Source: a virus. Taken from it: a stretch of 64,000 nucleotides of DNA. Each line of letters opens with the position of its first letter. The first letter of the stretch is position 1. Both the position numbers and the translations under genes were made by a program. A model generated the notes under the pieces. That model saw only the letters and a program-made list of their open reading frames with translations. It was not told the DNA's origin and searched no databases. This document shows, one piece after another, positions 6,105 through 36,630 of this stretch. The stretch covers positions 186,001 through 250,000 of IMG/VR virus record IMGVR_UViG_3300042564_002819; one strand, 5' to 3'.

Positions 6105-6997
6105 TACACTCTATAATAGATCCTAATGAAAAATATTATCCTTTATCGAAGGAAGAAGCACTAAAGTTATGGAATAACGAAATGGGAAATAAAATTGCAG
6201 CAATCGACAGCGAAGGTGGCGTAAATTATAAATCAAAAGGCCATTTGTATGACCCGTATCTTACTAACTTTATTATAGGATCTGGTGGATATATTAGCAG
6301 TTGGTCAGAAGAAGAAAACACTGATACTTCGTTAGTTATACGAGGCCTCGGCGGCGGTAGCAGAAAAGCTATAAAACATTGCTGGAAAACAGGCCGAACA
6401 TTTTACGCTATCGACACTGGATATTTAGGAAATGTAAAGACTAAAATTTGGAATAGAGTTAGTAAAAATTCATTACAAAATTTAGGTCCTATCGTTAATA
6501 GACCAACTGATCGACTTAAACTGTTGAACTATAAATTTAATCAATTTACCCCGGGTAGAAAAATATTAATATGTCCACCTAGTGATAAAGTAATGGATCT
6601 TTGGGATCAACCATCCCCGCAACAATGGACAGAAAATGTTATAAAAGAATTAAAACAATACACAGACCGACCTATTGAAGTTCGACTTAAGCCGGATAGA
6701 ACCGAGCGTGTTAATAATAATTCTATTCAATCTGCATTAAGCGACGATGTTTACTGCTTGGTTACATATAATAGTATAGCAGCAACCGAGGCATTGTTAT
6801 TTGGAAAACCTGCAATTGCACTAGGACAAAACGCTGCACAAGTTTTGTGTAACAAAGAATTAAAAGACATAGAAAATCTAAAAATTCCAAAAAAGGATGA
6901 GATGTTAGCATTTGCTGCTCATTTAAGTTATTGTCAATTTAATCAGGCCGAATTTGCTAACGGTACAGCATGGCGTATAGTAAATGAGAGTCGTTAG
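6089..6997 (+). CDS. GT-B-like glycosyltransferase, N-terminally odd
   Basis: The clear protein starts at an ATG at 6182 (271 residues), but the same frame upstream is open back to 6062. It reads like real coding sequence (DPNEKYYPLSKEEALKLWNN) without any ATG, GTG or TTG. It aligns by eye with the middle of the neighbours at 6984 and 8780, which have about 60 more N-terminal residues. The missing part ends at the A10 run in the preceding gene. Either an A AAA AAA minus-one frameshift joins the two genes, or a deletion or sequencing indel has fused them. The start given here is only the point after the A run. Confidence 0.5.
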   Translation, partial: LFKHIIHSIIDPNEKYYPLSKEEALKLWNNEMGNKIAAIDSEGGVNYKSKGHLYDPYLTNFIIGSGGYISSWSEEENTDTSLVIRGLGGGSRKAIKHCWKTGRTFYAIDTGYLGNVKTKIWNRVSKNSLQNLGPIVNRPTDRLKLLNYKFNQFTPGRKILICPPSDKVMDLWDQPSPQQWTENVIKELKQYTDRPIEVRLKPDRTERVNNNSIQSALSDDVYCLVTYNSIAATEALLFGKPAIALGQNAAQVLCNKELKDIENLKIPKKDEMLAFAAHLSYCQFNQAEFANGTAWRIVNESR

Positions 6998-7919
6998 TTA
7001 TATTAATGTTGTACCTTTAAAAAATAAATCACAAGAGAAGTCTGATCTTTTAACAAAGTTTATTAAAGGTGTAAATGCATCAGGAGATACAGGAATTATA
7101 CATACTGGATATAATCTTGTAGATTCGGATGTTGCAATAATTCAAGGTTGGCAACACGAGAGGGGCAAAAATGCCCCTCATCTACAATTAAGACAACAGA
7201 TTATTGATACTCAAATATCTAAGAAAAAATTTGTATGTACTGCTGACAGTAATCTATTTCTTTACGCAAACAAGTCTAACGAACCTTATCATTATTTAAG
7301 ATACAGTTTAAACGGTGTTTTTCCTAATACAGGAATATATTTTGACAAAAATACTGATCCGTCGAGGTGGGATCAAATACAACGTGATACAAGTATAGCC
7401 CTACAATCTCAAAAAACAACAGGAAAAAATATTGTGCTGTTTTGTCAAAGAAACGGCGGATGGAGCATGGGATCTGAAAATGTAACCGATTGGGTTAAAA
7501 GCACTGTTTTTAAAATTAGAAAATATTCCGATAGACCCATTGTTGTTCGACCACATCCTGGAGACAAACAAGCTGCTGAATACTTTAATCCAAAAAAGAC
7601 TAGTTTAAGACATCTAAATAATGTAACTATTAGTAACTTTGATACTCCATTAGAAATAGATTTAAAGGATGCATGGTGTGTGGTTAACCATAACAGCAGT
7701 AGTATAGTTGGTCCTATAATAAAAGGATATCCAGCATTTATAACAGATCCTATCAAAAGTCAGTGTGCCGAAGTTACACACCATTCGTTTGAGTTTATAG
7801 AGAATCCTAAAGAGTTTGATAGACTATCGTGGTTACAAAGAATTTCCATGTTTCATTGGAAATTTAGCGAACTAGAAGATGGCAGTGCGTGGAAGCATAT
7901 ACGAAATTACTGCCAATAA
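6984..7919 (+). CDS. GT-B-like glycan transferase (CDP-glycerol transferase/KpsS-like)
   Basis: A 311-residue protein. RPIVVRPHPGDKQAAEYF near residue 180 and VVNHNSSSIVGPIIKGYPAF near 235 are the R-P-H-P and N-S-S-x-x-x-E/G-x-P blocks of polyglycerophosphate/capsule transferases of GT-B fold. It overlaps the previous gene by 14 bases. It is one of three related copies in this cluster (6.1, 7.0 and 8.8 kb). Confidence 0.55.
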   Translation: MRVVSYINVVPLKNKSQEKSDLLTKFIKGVNASGDTGIIHTGYNLVDSDVAIIQGWQHERGKNAPHLQLRQQIIDTQISKKKFVCTADSNLFLYANKSNEPYHYLRYSLNGVFPNTGIYFDKNTDPSRWDQIQRDTSIALQSQKTTGKNIVLFCQRNGGWSMGSENVTDWVKSTVFKIRKYSDRPIVVRPHPGDKQAAEYFNPKKTSLRHLNNVTISNFDTPLEIDLKDAWCVVNHNSSSIVGPIIKGYPAFITDPIKSQCAEVTHHSFEFIENPKEFDRLSWLQRISMFHWKFSELEDGSAWKHIRNYCQ

Positions 7920-21764: not shown

Positions 21765-23189
21765 ATGACAACAAGACAAAATACAGACTACGGTTACGAT
21801 ATACAAAAGCTTTATTTGGAAATGATGCTAACCGACGCCGAAACATTCATTAGGTGTCAGAGTGTGTTTGATTCAAACAATTTTGATAGACGTCTGCAAC
21901 CAGCAGCACGGTTCATCAACGACTATGTAACCGAACACAATGCTATGCCCACCTTTGACATGGTAAATGCAACCACCAAGTCAGGACTAAACAATCCTGG
22001 CGAATTGCAAGAAGAACACTACGACTGGTTGTTGATAGAATTCGAAACATTCAGTAGACACAAAGCACTGGAAGCAGCAATCTTAAAAAGTGCAGACCTG
22101 TTGGAAAAAGGCGAATACGGTCCAGTAGAAGATCTTGTAAAACGTGCAGTGCAGATTGGTTTGCAAAAAGATCTGGGCACAGACTATTTTCGTGATCCTC
22201 GCAAAAGACTAGAAGCGATCAAAGATAAAAACGGACAGGTAAGCACTGGTTGGGCCAGTCTTGATCAAAAACTATTTGGCGGCTTCAACAGAGGCGAACT
22301 CAATATTTTTGCTGGCGGTTCCGGTGCAGGCAAAAGTTTGTTCTTGGCAAATCTAGGAGTCAACTGGGCTCTGGCTGGAATGAACGTGCTGTATCTAACT
22401 TTCGAACTCTCAGAAAACCTAGTCAGTATGCGTATTGACAGTATGGTTACAGGTGTTCCCACACGTGACGTTTTTAAAAGCATTGATGACGTAGAAATGC
22501 GAGTCCGGATGATTGGCAAAAAATCCGGTGCTATGCAGGTCAAATACATGCCCACTGGTAAAACAGCCAATGACCTTAGATCTTATGTTAAAGAATATGA
22601 AATCAAAACTGGCAAAAAGATAGACGCAGTATTGGTAGACTATCTCGATCTTATGATGCCAGTTTCAGTTAAGGTATCACCAGAAAATCTGTTTATCAAA
22701 GACAAGTATGTAAGTGAAGAACTGCGTAACCTAGCAATGGAATTGAACACAGTGTTTGTTACTGCAAGTCAGCTCAACAGAGGTGCAGTTGAAGAAATTG
22801 AATTTGACCATAGCCACATTAGTGGCGGCTTAAGTAAGATTCAAACCGCAGACAACGTATTTGGTATCTTCACCAGCAGAGCCATGCGAGAACGTGGACG
22901 CTATCAGCTACAGCTAATGAAAACACGTAGCAGTAGTGGTGTTAACAGCAAAATTGATCTAGAGTTTGATGTGGACACACTGCGTATTTCAGATACCGAA
23001 CAGGAAGAAGATTCAGCTGGTGCAGCACCACAATCTGCAGGATCTGCAATAGTTTCTGCTCTCAAGAGAAACAACACAGTGAACACTGCCCCGGATCATC
23101 CGGATCGCGGCCAATCTATGCCAAAAGTCTCCGCTGAAGTTGACAGCACTAGATTGAGAAACTTCATCAACAATCTGGGCAGCGAATAA
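21765..23189 (+). CDS. 41: Replicative DnaB-type helicase, gp41-like
   Basis: A 474-residue protein. A helical N-terminal domain is followed by a RecA-like core with FAGGSGAGKSLFLANLG near residue 184 (Walker A), VLYLTFELSENL near 208 and VLVDYLDLM near 288 (Walker B). HISGGLSKIQTADNV near 350 is the DnaB arginine-finger region. Size and order match T4 gp41. It acts as a hexamer on the lagging strand with the gp61 primase. Confidence 0.88.
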   Translation: MTTRQNTDYGYDIQKLYLEMMLTDAETFIRCQSVFDSNNFDRRLQPAARFINDYVTEHNAMPTFDMVNATTKSGLNNPGELQEEHYDWLLIEFETFSRHKALEAAILKSADLLEKGEYGPVEDLVKRAVQIGLQKDLGTDYFRDPRKRLEAIKDKNGQVSTGWASLDQKLFGGFNRGELNIFAGGSGAGKSLFLANLGVNWALAGMNVLYLTFELSENLVSMRIDSMVTGVPTRDVFKSIDDVEMRVRMIGKKSGAMQVKYMPTGKTANDLRSYVKEYEIKTGKKIDAVLVDYLDLMMPVSVKVSPENLFIKDKYVSEELRNLAMELNTVFVTASQLNRGAVEEIEFDHSHISGGLSKIQTADNVFGIFTSRAMRERGRYQLQLMKTRSSSGVNSKIDLEFDVDTLRISDTEQEEDSAGAAPQSAGSAIVSALKRNNTVNTAPDHPDRGQSMPKVSAEVDSTRLRNFINNLGSE

Positions 23190-24418: not shown

Positions 24419-24775
24419 ACAAATAAACTAACACAAACGTAGAGCAAGGTCAACCTGCCCTACGGGCAGTACCGGTACCCCGGAGGGGTACTCGTATGAT
24501 AAAAAAATTTGCTGCAAAAAAAATTACAGGAGTACTTACAGTACCACGGTGGTCAGTTTTTGGCCCAAGGGGTTCCTGGGTTGTAAAAAAATTCTGCCGA
24601 GAAAATTTATATAGAAGTACTTACAGTTTCAGGGTGGTGATTCGGCAACCCCAGGTTTGGCGTAGCGTGGGGGAAAGATTTGGCTGCCGCTGCGTTAAAA
24701 ACTGTGTCAAGCATAAAACGCATACGACCCCCCCGAGAAAAAAATATTTTTTTTATTTTACTATACGACACTTGA
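24419..24775. other. Gene-free stretch with an imperfect direct repeat
   Basis: I see no convincing gene. Two related segments (about 24500-24545 and 24581-24628) share a run AAAAAAATT, then TGC, then GTACTTACAGT. A C7 run with flanking A/T-rich tracts follows near 24727-24760. The short palindrome TACCGGTA lies near 24470. This could be a regulatory or origin-like spacer. The nature is unknown. Confidence 0.4.
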
Positions 24776-24789
24776 CAAAAGTATTTTTG

Positions 24790-24816
24790 TTAGTGCAAGC
24801 ACAGCACTTGCACTAA
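24790..24816. repeat. Hairpin of the TAGTGCAAG family
   Basis: Inverted repeat TTAGTGCAAG / CTTGCACTAA with a 7-base loop, just after the end of the 24830 gene. First of seven such hairpins in the island. Confidence 0.6.
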
Positions 24817-24829
24817 CAGTTAGCTTATG

Positions 24830-25192
24830 TTACGCTGCGTGTTGTTGCTGTGCAACACTAGCGTTTTTGTATGCTTGCAACACTTGCAAAGCACTATGCA
24901 AGCAAAAATTAGTGTGTTGCTGTGCATACTTTTGTTTGCTTTGTGCAACAAGTATTGCAGCATTAATTGCGTGTTGCATGTTGTGCTGTGTTGCACATTT
25001 GCAAACATGTGCTGTGCAAGTGCAGCGTGTAGCATTGTTTGCTTGTGCAGCATAGTGCATGTTAAGCTGCATAAGTGCAACACTGTGCTGCACATAAGCT
25101 TTTGTTGCATTGTATTTGTAATAGTTAGCTTTTGCAGTGCTGTTATGCTGCGTTTGCTTTTTTGCGTAAGTGTTAAGCAAGTTGTTAAGCAT
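24830..25192 (-). CDS. 120-residue protein lacking Asp, Glu, Gly, Pro and Trp
   Basis: It has a matched promoter 38 bases upstream and a hairpin after the stop, like the other genes here. The protein is rich in Asn, Gln, Ala, His and Cys and has no Asp, Glu, Gly, Pro or Trp. That is exactly what absence of GR/YC dinucleotides forces. It may be a real gene adapted to that rule or a gene mutated by D-to-N, E-to-K type changes. Function unknown. Confidence 0.45.
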   Translation of the reverse strand: MLNNLLNTYAKKQTQHNSTAKANYYKYNATKAYVQHSVALMQLNMHYAAQANNATRCTCTAHVCKCATQHNMQHAINAAILVAQSKQKYAQQHTNFCLHSALQVLQAYKNASVAQQQHAA

Positions 25193-25229
25193 GTTGTGCT
25201 ACTTTGCTGTTTGTGTTGCTGTTACATAC

Positions 25230-25258
25230 TGTTTACAGTATTGCGTTAGCTAATGCAA
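25230..25258 (-). promoter_or_regulatory. Early promoter for the 24830 gene
   Basis: TTGCAT, 17 bases, TAAACA on the minus strand; divergent from the promoter at 25337. Confidence 0.5.
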
Positions 25259-25336
25259 GTAAAATAACGCATAATAAAATTGCTTTATTAGTGCAAACAA
25301 CGCAATATTATTACGTGCTTTTTTTGCATTTTGTTG

Positions 25337-25365
25337 TTGCGTTTGCTGTGCTGTGCTGCTATACA
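25337..25365 (+). promoter_or_regulatory. Early promoter for the 25403 gene
   Basis: TTGCGT, 17 bases, TATACA. It is the only plus-strand early gene promoter inside the island. Confidence 0.6.
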
Positions 25366-25402
25366 GTATGCATACAGCAACTAACAGCAAAGTGTAACAC
25401 AC

Positions 25403-25705
25403 ATGCAATACGCAAACTATGCTAGCGTTGTTAACGCTATTAACTGTTATGACGACACTGTGCTTCGTGAAGCACAGCAGCTTGCACTAGCTATAGCACA
25501 GCACAACGAAGACTACTGCACAGACAGCTTGTTTGACGCAGTTAACGAAAGCGTTGACGACTTGGGTATGCAAGCTTGTTGGCAGCACACGGAAATGCGT
25601 AGTGCAATTGAACAGTATAACGACGAGTGCTACAGCACAGCAATTTACGAGCTTGTAATTGCAATGCTAAAGCGTAGCTCAGCATACGAGCAAGCGTTTA
25701 CGTAA
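25403..25705 (+). CDS. Acidic 100-residue protein, unknown
   Basis: It has its own promoter 38 bases upstream and a hairpin after the stop. The protein is acidic and helical, with YDDTVLREAQQLALAIAQHN near residue 16. GR dinucleotides are mostly confined to Asp, Glu, Gly and Trp codons, and YC is nearly absent. Small acidic early proteins of phages often bind host enzymes, but no target can be named. Confidence 0.6.
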   Translation: MQYANYASVVNAINCYDDTVLREAQQLALAIAQHNEDYCTDSLFDAVNESVDDLGMQACWQHTEMRSAIEQYNDECYSTAIYELVIAMLKRSSAYEQAFT

Positions 25706-25728
25706 CGCAAGCTTTTAAAAAAAACAAG

Positions 25729-25756
25729 CACAGTGCAAGTGTAAGCTTGCACTGTG
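25729..25756. repeat. Hairpin after the 25403 gene
   Basis: CACAGTGCAAG / CTTGCACTGTG with a 6-base loop. An A8 run precedes it on the coding strand. Confidence 0.6.
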
Positions 25757-25798
25757 TCGTCGTTTGTGCAGTTTGTTATTTTGTTATTTTGTTATTTT

Positions 25799-25826
25799 GG
25801 GGCGGGCCGGGGGATAGAACTTGGGG
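25799..25826 (+). other. G-rich block, possible G-quadruplex
   Basis: Four G runs (4, 3, 5, 4) with loops of 1, 2 and 9 bases. It is a striking exception inside an island that otherwise avoids GG. It follows three direct repeats of TTGTTATT. Confidence 0.5.
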
Positions 25827-25828
25827 TA

Positions 25829-25857
25829 GCTAGTGCAAGCATTACACTTGCACTGGC
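25829..25857. repeat. Hairpin of the TAGTGCAAG family
   Basis: GCTAGTGCAAG / CTTGCACTGGC with a 7-base loop, between the 25865 gene and the G-rich block. Confidence 0.6.
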
Positions 25858-25864
25858 TGTTTTT

Positions 25865-26047
25865 TTACAGTTTGTTTATGCGGCGCAGGCAGTAGGCGAA
25901 TTGACGTGCAGGACGGGTGCGAGTGCTAATAGACATGCTGTTAGCATAGTATTCGTAAACTTCGTTATAAAGGGCTCCGGAGCTGTCAAGTTCTTTTGTT
26001 TGTTTGTATACTGCAAGTTCCTGCTTTGCTGCGTTGCTAAGTTCCAT
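25865..26047 (-). CDS. 60-residue unknown protein
   Basis: MELSNAAKQELAVYKQ then an acidic middle and a basic C-terminus (RTRPARQFAYCLRRINKL). AAGGAAA precedes the ATG, and a matched early promoter lies 33 bases upstream. Function unknown. Confidence 0.55.
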   Translation of the reverse strand: MELSNAAKQELAVYKQTKELDSSGALYNEVYEYYANSMSISTRTRPARQFAYCLRRINKL

Positions 26048-26079
26048 TTTGCAGTTTCCTTTTTGCTGTTTGTTTGTAT

Positions 26080-26108
26080 TGTATAGCAGCTTGTATTAGC
26101 TAGTGCAA
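26080..26108 (-). promoter_or_regulatory. Early promoter for the 25865 gene
   Basis: TTGCAC, 17 bases, TATACA. The -35 box lies in one arm of the hairpin at 26099. Confidence 0.65.
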
Positions 26109-26130
26109 GCATTATTTTACTTGCACTAGC
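26099..26130. repeat. Hairpin overlapping an early promoter
   Basis: GCTAGTGCAAG / CTTGCACTAGC, perfect 11-bp arms, 10-base loop; near-identical to 26786. Confidence 0.7.
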
Positions 26131-26135
26131 AATTA

Positions 26136-26146
26136 ACAGCGGGGCC
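26136..26146 (+). repeat. Dispersed 11-mer ACAGCGGGGCC, copy 1
   Basis: One of eight copies, all in this orientation. Its right flank (AGACCCGTTTGTT) resembles that of copy 7. Confidence 0.6.
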
Positions 26147-26162
26147 TTAGTAGACCCGTTTG

Positions 26163-26462
26163 TTACAAAACACAGTATTCCGTTTGAGGAACAAGTTCGT
26201 TTTCCTCAATGTAACGCAACACGCTAACAAACTGCTCCCGCATGTCAGTGTCAAAATACACAATTGTCGTGTGCAGTTCAACAGCGTCGCTCGTTGCAAT
26301 AAACGAAGCAAGTGCGTCAGCAGCACGGGCAATGTCGTTTGCAAACATTGCAATGTGTTCCTGAGGAATTGCAGTTGCAAAATAGTTTTGCGTGTAAGCT
26401 GCAATAGCGTCACGCATTGCTTTTACAGTGTAAAACTTACGCAGCACAGTCATTTTACGCAT
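26163..26462 (-). CDS. 99-residue unknown protein
   Basis: Mixed helical protein (FYTVKAMRDAIAAYTQNYF near residue 10). GAGGGA lies 7 bases before the ATG at 26462. Codons follow the GR/YC avoidance: all Phe are TTT and all Ile are ATT. Function unknown. Confidence 0.65.
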   Translation of the reverse strand: MRKMTVLRKFYTVKAMRDAIAAYTQNYFATAIPQEHIAMFANDIARAADALASFIATSDAVELHTTIVYFDTDMREQFVSVLRYIEENELVPQTEYCVL

Positions 26463-26495
26463 TGTGTATTCCCTCTATGCGTTGCTTATGTGTAC

Positions 26496-26524
26496 TGTAT
26501 AGCAGACAGTGTCGGCTAGTGCAA
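26496..26524 (-). promoter_or_regulatory. Early promoter for the 26163 gene
   Basis: TTGCAC, 17 bases, TATACA; -35 inside the hairpin at 26515. Confidence 0.65.
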
Positions 26525-26547
26525 GCACAAAATGCACTTGCACCGGC
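26515..26547. repeat. Hairpin overlapping an early promoter
   Basis: GCTAGTGCAAG / CTTGCACCGGC, 11-base loop. A T5 run follows on the plus strand, which is antisense to the genes on both sides. Confidence 0.65.
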
Positions 26548-26553
26548 AGTTTT

Positions 26554-26733
26554 TTAGTCTTGCAATTGCAATTGCAATGTGTTAAGCTTTTGCAGTGCAG
26601 CGTCTTCTTCTGCTAGTGCAAGCTTATAAACTGCATAGCTGCCGCCTTGCATAGCTTCTGCTCGGCACTGTGCAGTAAGTGCTACAGCGTTTGCGTAACG
26701 CTTTTGTGCATTAGCAAGTTTTTTGTTTTGCAT
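26554..26733 (-). CDS. 59-residue helical protein
   Basis: Short gene with CGGAG before the ATG and a matched promoter. The protein is an Ala/Gln-rich helix (MQNKKLANAQKRYANAVAL ... LQKLNTLQLQLQD), probably coiled coil. The hairpin follows the stop. Function unknown. Confidence 0.55.
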   Translation of the reverse strand: MQNKKLANAQKRYANAVALTAQCRAEAMQGGSYAVYKLALAEEDAALQKLNTLQLQLQD

Positions 26734-26766
26734 AGCGTGTGCTCCGTTTTGCTACGTTATGCGTTG

Positions 26767-26795
26767 TTTATAGCAGCTTGTGTCTGCTAGTGCAA
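26767..26795 (-). promoter_or_regulatory. Early promoter for the 26554 gene
   Basis: TTGCAC, 17 bases, TATAAA; -35 inside the hairpin at 26786. Confidence 0.65.
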
Positions 26796-26817
26796 GCATT
26801 ATTTTACTTGCACTAGC
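26786..26817. repeat. Hairpin overlapping an early promoter
   Basis: GCTAGTGCAAG / CTTGCACTAGC, perfect 11-bp arms. Confidence 0.7.
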
Positions 26818-26828
26818 AGTTTTTTGTG

Positions 26829-27020
26829 TTACGCTTCGTCTGCGTCTTCCTCAATTTGCTCCAACATAGCCGTAATGTCGTAGCCAACCGTCTGCATTGC
26901 AATAACAATCTGTTTCGCTGCTTCGTATGCATCCCAGCTTTGCACTTCGTCAGCATCCGTGCTGTCGTATGCATTAGCAGCAATTTGTGCAATGTTAGCA
27001 AACAGTTCTTCGCGTGTCAT
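26829..27020 (-). CDS. Acidic 63-residue protein
   Basis: Start at 27020 (MTREELFANIAQ) chosen because GAGGGA lies 8 bases upstream; in-frame residues above it overlap the promoter. Acidic C-terminus MLEQIEEDADEA. No YC dinucleotide within the sense strand of the gene by my reading. Function unknown. Confidence 0.6.
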   Translation of the reverse strand: MTREELFANIAQIAANAYDSTDADEVQSWDAYEAAKQIVIAMQTVGYDITAMLEQIEEDADEA

Positions 27021-27052
27021 GTGCAGTCCCTCTTGTGTTGCCCTATGTGTTA

Positions 27053-27081
27053 TGTATAGCACAGCACACAGCACTTGTCAA
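27053..27081 (-). promoter_or_regulatory. Early promoter for the 26829 gene
   Basis: TTGACA, 17 bases, TATACA; the -35 straddles the loop of the hairpin at 27063. Confidence 0.7.
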
Positions 27082-27100
27082 GTAAAAAGTGCTGTGTGCT
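27063..27100. repeat. Long hairpin overlapping an early promoter
   Basis: AGCACACAGCACTT / AAGTGCTGTGTGCT, 14-bp arms, 10-base loop. A T7 run lies on the plus strand just after. Confidence 0.7.
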
Positions 27101-27110
27101 GCAAGTTTTT

Positions 27111-27377
27111 TTAAATATTACACGCTATAAGTGCTTCGTCAAGCATGTCGTGTACTGCACTGTCGTACGCATAGTTATACTCCGTAGCAAAATCCACGTC
27201 GCTGCTGCACATAATTGTGTCATATTTGTTAATGTTATACTGTTTAAATGCAGCAATTATGTCGTTTGCACTATTACAAAAAACGTCAACAGTTTTATTA
27301 ATACGCAGTACAATTGCGTTTGTAGCGTCGTCAAGCATTACAAAAACGTAATTAGTATTTGCTACAGTGTTTTGCAT
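27111..27377 (-). CDS. 88-residue unknown protein
   Basis: Start at 27377 (MQNTVANTNYVFVMLDDA) with GAGGAG 6 bases upstream. Nearly all GR steps on the sense strand are in Asp or Glu codons and no YC is seen. The many Asp residues were therefore kept while other sites were purged. Function unknown. Confidence 0.6.
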   Translation of the reverse strand: MQNTVANTNYVFVMLDDATNAIVLRINKTVDVFCNSANDIIAAFKQYNINKYDTIMCSSDVDFATEYNYAYDSAVHDMLDEALIACNI

Positions 27378-27416
27378 ATTGTGCTCCTCGCATATGCTGT
27401 GTTGCTTACAAATACA

Positions 27417-27444
27417 GTTATACACTATGCAGCACAGTTTGCAA
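27417..27444 (-). promoter_or_regulatory. Early promoter for the 27111 gene
   Basis: TTGCAA, 16 bases, TATAAC. Confidence 0.55.
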
Positions 27445-27504
27445 GTAACGTTTTGTTACAGTTTTAGTGCGTGTTGTAACAATACGTTATCTCCTACCTC
27501 TGCC

Positions 27505-27852
27505 TCACTCTACACCCCAGCCACAGTATTTCTTCCCACGCACAATATCAAAAAACTCTGCACCTGCAACCGCACCAATCCAGTCGTAAATGTAGTCTCG
27601 TGCTGCCGTGTCCATCTCCCACAGCCGGTCTTCAACCAATCGCCAATCACCTTCGGCTAGCAGCACACAAACATCAAGCCCAGCACTGGCATCTCCCAAC
27701 AGCATAGCTCGCATAGAACGATCCGCTGCCCAACGCTCCTGGTCCGTCCGCATCTTTTCCATTACCAGCAGTTCCACTTGAAGTGCAAGTTCCTGCCAGT
27801 TGATGTGGACAGTGCCGGTAAGAGTGGGTTCATTTACAGTTACGATAGACAT
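27505..27852 (-). CDS. 115-residue unknown protein
   Basis: First gene right of the dinucleotide island, with normal composition. MSIVTVNEPTLTGTVHINW is strand-like, then a helical part (ELALQVELLVMEKMRTDQ). A perfectly spaced promoter lies 35 bases upstream and AGAGGA serves as ribosome site. Function unknown. Confidence 0.6.
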   Translation of the reverse strand: MSIVTVNEPTLTGTVHINWQELALQVELLVMEKMRTDQERWAADRSMRAMLLGDASAGLDVCVLLAEGDWRLVEDRLWEMDTAARDYIYDWIGAVAGAEFFDIVRGKKYCGWGVE

Positions 27853-36343: not shown

Positions 36344-36420
36344 TGGTAGCCCCTGCAGGACTCGAACCTGCGACCCACCGCTTAGAAGGCGGTTGCTCTG
36401 ATCCGCTGAGCTAAGGAGCC
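36344..36420 (-). tRNA. tRNA-Arg (anticodon TCT)
   Basis: A full cloverleaf with encoded CCA. The anticodon stem ACCGC/GCGGT encloses the loop CTTCTAA, so the anticodon is TCT (reads AGA). The T arm is GCAGG-TTCGAGT-CCTGC. AGA is used often in the AT-rich phage genes, which fits a codon-supply role. Confidence 0.9.
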
Positions 36421-36430
36421 ATTATTGTAT

Positions 36431-36451
36431 CTTAAGCTGAGCTACGGAACC
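36431..36451 (-). pseudogene. tRNA remnant (5' acceptor and D arm)
   Basis: The minus strand reads GGTTCCGTAGCTCAGCTTAAG, which looks like the first 20 bases of a tRNA (acceptor strand, T8-A9, GCTC) and then breaks off. A deleted tRNA gene between two intact ones. Confidence 0.6.
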
Positions 36452-36464
36452 AGCAAAAGAAGTT

Positions 36465-36541
36465 TGGTAGGGGATACCGGACTTGAACCGATAACCTGCG
36501 GATTATGAGTCCGACGCTCTAACCAATTGAGCTAATCCCCC
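36465..36541 (-). tRNA. tRNA with anticodon CAT (Met elongator or Ile2)
   Basis: Cloverleaf with encoded CCA. The loop is CTCATAA, anticodon CAT. The first pair is G-T rather than the C-A mismatch of initiators, so it is not an initiator. Met elongator and lysidine-modified Ile cannot be told apart by eye; Ile2 (AUA codons) would suit the AT-rich genes. Confidence 0.85.
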
Positions 36542-36548
36542 GAAACTT

Positions 36549-36630
36549 TGGTACCCGCTGCCGGACTCGAACCGGCACGCACTAGCGGGAGATTTTAAGT
36601 CTCCTGTGTCTACCATTCCACCAAGCGGGC
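36549..36630 (-). tRNA. tRNA-Leu (anticodon TAA)
   Basis: Class II tRNA of 82 bases with a variable arm and CCA. Anticodon stem GGAGA/TCTCC, loop CTTAAAA, anticodon TAA (reads TTA). Confidence 0.9.

Follow-up and report, generated by a model that had tools for sequence, protein, structure and literature searches.

Why does a short block of a phage genome do without the dinucleotides GA, GG, TC and CC? The question is raised by positions 24776-27489 of a 64,000-nucleotide stretch of DNA (the window), which is part of the 330,024-base IMG/VR virus record IMGVR_UViG_3300042564_002819 (G000). G000 is a jumbo-phage record related to the Pseudomonas phage PA5oct; it encodes a DnaB-like helicase that shares about 52% identity with its counterparts in Pseudomonas jumbo phages, PA5oct among them. 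A preliminary description of the window took the block for a sharply bounded island in which YC (TC, CC; UC, CC in RNA) and GR (GA, GG) are avoided on both strands. It proposed deamination of YC to YT, escape from a system recognising YC or GR, or an extreme codon rule as the cause, and transfer as a block. Our analysis shows instead that the core of the phenomenon is the absence of YC from the sense strand of small phage genes and the DNA between them, and that this absence recurs in many related phages.

Results

YC is missing from the sense strand

For the predicted genes of four phage records, expected numbers of YC and GR were obtained by applying the codon usage of the respective genome to each protein. 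Gene calls came from a simple script, and all transcription units and promoters mentioned below are predictions. Island genes contained 0-2 YC where 6-21 were expected, except for a leaky gene at 26163-26462 of the window, and nearly all non-island genes had at least half of the expected YC. In the island genes of related phages, YC amounted to about 1% of the codon-usage expectation. The depletion thus goes far beyond amino acid composition, and the emphasis of the preliminary description on YC was justified. The rule is so strict that the encoded proteins are almost free of proline, and serine is encoded by AGY only; the underlying amino acid table includes one wrong frame (the last L147 gene) with slight effect, and the misplaced frame L147 2936-3252 was not used.

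GR on the sense strand behaved differently, being largely accounted for by the protein sequence. Optional GR was missing in 24830-25192 of the window and in 6871-7113 and 7368-7619 of the related locus L165, and it was ordinary or even higher in L104/L146 and at 26829-27035 of the window. Loss of GR from the sense strand is a secondary, graded feature that is absent in some relatives. Both losses appeared linked at first because the window happens to hold an extreme stretch with neither YC nor GR. A rule for both strands was rejected, since the GR side is ordinary in L104/L146 while sense YC is zero; a protein family with the motif FTEQGMQ, described below, likewise disagrees with it. A rule tied to the replication strand was rejected because the units of L165 lie in mixed orientations.

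A codon or amino acid rule also failed, being contradicted by the codon-usage expectation, by codon junctions and by intergenic DNA. In three phage groups, YC reached only 0.00-0.07 of expectation both at codon junctions and at codon positions 2-3. In island coding DNA, 11 of 1556 C (0.7%) stood in a YC context, and in intergenic island DNA 3 of 272 (1.1%); in ordinary loci the fraction is about 0.3-0.5 of all C. As codon junctions are as strict as codon interiors, the rule must act on nucleic acid rather than on codons. Outside the islands, TC at codon junctions was at 0.87-1.05 of a within-gene shuffle, indicating little or no avoidance.

Extent of the island in the window

The counts of GA, GG, TC and CC in 24776-25450 were indeed all zero, and the exact runs are slightly longer. 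The plus strand is free of TC and CC from 24734 to 25465 (732 bases), and this run encloses one of 677 bases without GA or GG (24775-25451), hence neither strand carries YC there. In 200 first-order Markov sequences built from the flanks, the longest run without all four dinucleotides averaged 38 bases and never exceeded 59; the real flanks reached 45. No second island was found in the 330 kb record, in which all other 500-base windows had at least 0.52 of the expected number. The next lowest values (0.52-0.6) were seen at 157000-161100 of G000, outside the window, mainly owing to low YC on the plus strand; this region is not an island.

To the right of the doubly depleted part the rule is strand-specific. 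A YC-free run of 963 bases on the minus strand, which is the sense strand here, extends from 26665 to 27627, and the latter position is the true right edge of the sense-strand rule. The edges are as sharp as described before, but the right one does not fall between genes at 27489; it lies within the gene at 27505-27852. The rule also has exceptions within the island: apart from the leaky gene at 26163-26462 (9 YC), the segment 25751-26095 breaks the rule with 30 YC on the minus strand and a G-run on the G-rich plus strand (GGGGCGGGCCGGGGG), and is possibly an insertion or an untranscribed spacer. In the minus-strand island genes, residual sense GR was found in Asp, Glu and Gly codons and in ribosome sites, as the preliminary description had it. 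Left of the island, the non-coding region 24420-24775 contains repeated GTACTTACAG... and GGGGT... elements.

Islands in related phages

Using the helicase gene (21765-23189, plus strand, outside the island) as query, 80 related loci were retrieved; several of them, e.g., L083, L103, L148, L149, and L150, represent identical or almost identical phages, so that locus counts overstate independence. The search for further islands suggested by the preliminary description was successful: comparable islands of 0.4-2.1 kb are present in many IMG/VR relatives. Among the helicase relatives, L083, L024/L104, L033/L106, and L031 have islands some 9 kb downstream, with YC-free sense strands of 2,078, 1,356, 1,359, and 429 bases, respectively. 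Judged by the helicase, the record most similar to the window is G007 (82% identity), which had no island from base 2001 to its end. A search with an island protein of 45 residues identified L147 and L148.

The protein with the FTEQGMQ motif retrieved 45 loci. In most phages the members of this family are small stand-alone genes that are free of YC or nearly so; versions fused into longer proteins contain 13-25 YC, an ordinary number. In the family tree, members free of YC or nearly so occupy three deep branches of the stand-alone clade, and L157/L159 appear to have reverted to ordinary YC. The predicted fold (mean predicted local distance difference test score 88) had no convincing match in the PDB, and no bacterial genome carrying the family was found. 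Named phages yielded no relatives, either by DNA or by three island proteins.

The YC rule is retained across proteins that have diverged to about 50% identity, and it has persisted against drift. Island genes are orphan small open reading frames (ORFs), and related cassettes occur in differing order among the phages. Just upstream of the islands, non-coding DNA of L147 (180-250) and L106 (13500-13700) contains DnaA-box-like TGTGGATAA and iteron-like repeats. The replication origin hinted at by these repeats was not adopted as an explanation, the window showing no excess of them. The same 20-mer, TATTTGAACTATGCCTCTCG, is found upstream of two islands (L104 26-45, L106 12943-12962).

The rule follows predicted transcription units

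The locus L165 contains plus-strand units followed by minus-strand units and again by plus-strand units, with YC absent in each case from the sense strand of the unit. The four predicted units (1258, 380, 807, and 776 bases) have 0, 0, 1, and 0 sense YC, i.e., one in 3.2 kb, and the three spacers (52, 118, and 85 bases) have 3, 8, and 13, in total 24; this agreement is partly by construction, since the YC runs, along with predicted hairpins and promoter-like sequences, served to place the unit borders. The spacers are predicted to sit between terminator-like hairpins, which fold at -22 to -26 kcal/mol, and the next promoters, and YC reappears soon past the hairpins. Transfer as a block is possible, but the return of YC in the spacers counts against it as the source of the pattern, because a passively transferred composition would not stop at predicted unit ends.

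Inverted copies of AGTTAACATGTTATGTTTATTTTACTTGCATTT at L165 4573-4605 and 7168-7200 flank a block of plus and minus units; they could be a shared promoter sequence or the ends of a mobile block. In intergenic regions of L147, L106, and L151, the small genes are individually equipped with a TTGACA/TATAGT-like promoter, which overlaps an inverted repeat that varies in sequence but stays complementary. Judged by sequence, these elements look like combined terminator-promoters.

Probable selection rather than mutation

If YC had been converted to YT, T at fourfold degenerate sites after a pyrimidine should equal background T plus C. Over 1179 such sites, 399 T were counted, against 587 predicted by deamination and 436 by proportional avoidance (standard deviation 17), which places deamination 11 standard deviations off. 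The lost C was spread over T, A, and G rather than turned into T; in L083 taken by itself, fourfold T was as high as deamination predicts. C after purine was about as common as in neighbouring genes, the local background used here; a whole-genome background had suggested enrichment, whereas against the local one RC was largely unchanged. Conserved serine sites had switched from TCN to AGY, and lost proline and serine were not accompanied by the gain of leucine and phenylalanine expected from C-to-T changes. Homologous island pairs differed by 11-19 RC/RT changes per pair and by no YC/YT change, with the exception of one pair, where the rule does not cover the whole partner.

PF00383, a family of cytidine deaminases, did not turn up in G000, G004, G008, G009, G010, and G011, with host enzymes and other deaminase folds lying outside this search and several of the records being fragments; it is present in G007, which has no island, and in G012. 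The fourfold T, the RC level, the AGY serines, the pairwise differences and the ordinary TC outside the islands argue that YC was selected against and not mutated away. The pattern looks like long-standing purifying selection against YC, acting either at the level of transcripts or at that of the non-template strand during transcription.

Genes and hairpins of the island

The doubly depleted stretch contains a minus-strand ORF of 120 codons (24830-25192) encoding no D, E, G, P, or W. Its leader CAAACAGCAAAGTAGCACAACATG resembles, by eye and in comparison with L147/L165, the common island leader GCAAAGAGGGCAAAC-ATG, except that the Shine-Dalgarno core is replaced, and the ORF is likely a real gene. 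The proteins of L165 6871-7113 and 7368-7619 also lack these five residues, a composition that may be conserved, because the weak L154 homologue of one such protein is nearly free of D, E, and G as well. A terminator-like hairpin (GTTAGTGCAAG...CTTGCACTAAC) is located at 24789-24817, and the minus-sense YC-free run stops just beyond it.

On the plus strand, a small gene for 100 residues annotated without function (25403-25705) has 2 YC, with 10.5-15.8 expected. Four minus-strand genes follow. The leaky one at 26163-26462 (99 residues; 9 YC, 14.3-22.5 expected) has a homologue with 34% identity in L190/L191; a single-protein search with it gave no matches. The others, at 26554-26733 (59 residues), 26829-27020 (63 residues, ordinary sense GR), and 27111-27377 (88 residues), have 1, 0, and 0 YC compared to 9.3, 5.8, and 7.8 expected, respectively. 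Intergenic hairpins of a GCTAGTGCAAG...CTTGCACTAGC family are found at 26099-26131 and, as a second copy, at 26785-26817, with more members near 25826, 26514, and 27062. None of the island proteins belonged to a confident Pfam or PHROG family. Elsewhere in the window, three tRNA genes (Arg-TCT, Met-CAT, Leu-TAA) lie on the minus strand at 36344-36630.

Discussion

Escape from an agent that reads YC

The islands may be small phage transcription units, each consisting of promoter, leader, small gene and 3′ hairpin, from whose transcript strand purifying selection would keep 5′-YC-3′ (UC, CC). A cellular agent would sense YC in nascent RNA or in the exposed non-template strand and stop or destroy the YC-containing product, so that YC-free units would escape. 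As a whole, we give this explanation about an even chance of being correct. Escape as such, which the preliminary description had considered, thereby fits best in its YC form; strand-blind reading of GR and YC does not fit. In the most specific version, the units would produce transcripts to which the termination factor Rho is blind, its primary site recognising 5′-YC dimers in RNA (PMC9160355). Rho is the known factor that best matches YC. Next and nearly as likely is a YC-specific endoribonuclease serving host defence or phage shut-off, which would account for the zero tolerance. Rho-proof transcripts should lack 5′-YC, and a single YC was left in the L165 units; they should also show weaker avoidance under ribosome shielding, and this was not seen, coding DNA being no more permissive than intergenic DNA.

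Several points weigh against this explanation. The usual target of Rho is untranslated RNA, but translated sequences are as free of YC here as intergenic ones, and a zero tolerance for every dinucleotide would seem to exceed what is needed to disable Rho sites, which comprise several spaced YC. Optional sense GR, i.e., antisense YC, is reduced in many islands and missing altogether from 24775-25451; a rule acting on RNA only leaves this unexplained unless antisense RNA matters. We know of no YC-specific RNase. The transcription units are predicted, with borders partly set by YC runs, and a stretch of about 50-75 bases ahead of the -10 region of the first promoter also looks YC-free, though it contains few C. 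Our broader proposition, that a prokaryotic agent attacks YC and that a jumbo-phage family answers by keeping units almost completely YC-free from promoter to terminator and their proteins nearly proline-free, in an arms race over two bases, is tentative and in our view somewhat more likely to be wrong than right.

Alternatively, a YC-specific enzyme for single-stranded DNA, either a nuclease or a deaminase followed by strand breakage, could attack the non-template strand where transcription exposes it. Units that are expressed early and strongly would then be YC-free to survive, and the template, being less exposed, would lose GR only in part. Such an enzyme would account for the sense bias, the equal effect on coding and intergenic DNA, the varying degree of GR loss and the double depletion beside divergent genes, and a precedent exists in T4 endonuclease IV (DenB), a single-strand nuclease specific for dC (PMC12405507). 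Searches for DenB and Alc in eight relevant records, among which there was no positive control, gave no match, and much of the genome outside the islands is ordinary in TC; we consider this alternative rather unlikely. Deaminases often prefer YC, and transcription-coupled deamination could have turned non-template YC into YT until none was left, the proteins adapting. Engineered transcription-targeted deaminases do mutate genes downstream of a promoter (PMC9437889, PMC12218169). As a mutation bias, this process was rejected by the pooled fourfold test, although L083 taken by itself fits deamination, and the unreduced RC, the AGY serines, the missing leucine and phenylalanine and the failure to find PF00383 in G000 and most island records also speak against it; a deaminase combined with transversion-prone repair would evade the fourfold test, and deamination in some form is improbable rather than dismissed.

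Without any active agent, an imported DNA block or a particular regime of codon usage might lack YC by chance. Sharp edges, orphan small ORFs and the varying cassette order would suit such an origin, but the rule spans codon boundaries and intergenic DNA, tracks gene orientation within one block, ends in short spacers and was held in proteins diverged to about 50% identity, which makes a passive origin very improbable. Several protospacer adjacent motifs (PAMs) contain YC or GR, and 24775-25451 is without both, as escape from a double-strand DNA system such as CRISPR (clustered regularly interspaced short palindromic repeats) or restriction would demand. In L104/L146, L190, and others, YC abounds on the opposite strand, so that a strand-blind reader would still cut; this possibility is largely refuted by the strand asymmetry and hardly deserves further weight.

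Comparison with known systems

Rho termination at Rho utilization (rut) sites is similar in that the avoided word is exactly that of the Rho primary site, only the sense strand is concerned and intergenic DNA is included; it is dissimilar in that translated sequence is also affected and hardly a single site is spared. To our knowledge, no phage or gene class is kept wholly YC-free. MazF resembles the proposed agent in that transcripts without the recognised sequence survive cleavage, but ACA-less mRNAs are engineered and three bases are recognised; we know of no YC interferase. The suppression of CpG and UpA in vertebrate RNA viruses, attributed to the two-base sensors ZAP and RNase L, is likewise an avoidance on the RNA strand, but consists of depletion rather than near-complete absence in sharply bounded units of a DNA phage. 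The T4 factors Alc and DenB act against cytosine-containing DNA by ending its transcription or by cutting it (PMC2988021). As they attack unmodified cytosine DNA, early genes need protection; T4 shields its DNA by modified C, however, and the searches for Alc and DenB described above gave no match. Scars of APOBEC/AID-type or DddA-type enzymes share the YC/TC context, but the expected C-to-T product was not seen at fourfold sites. Avoidance of PAMs or restriction sites would not leave the opposite strand ordinary as in L104/L146 and L190, and a codon-usage regime would not extend to junctions and intergenic DNA.

Literature searches found nothing on YC-free genes; we are aware of no equally strict dinucleotide selection in DNA phages and know of no system of this kind. 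The islands imply either a strong agent that reads YC in the strand of the transcript or Rho blindness taken to an extreme. Long YC-free runs on the sense strand provide a simple signature for finding further islands, their hosts and small, possibly anti-defence genes, and the cause of the YC penalty is directly testable with synonymous reporter variants. If the explanation is true, bacteria and their phages would be engaged in an arms race at the level of dinucleotides comparable to that of CpG and ZAP in vertebrates.

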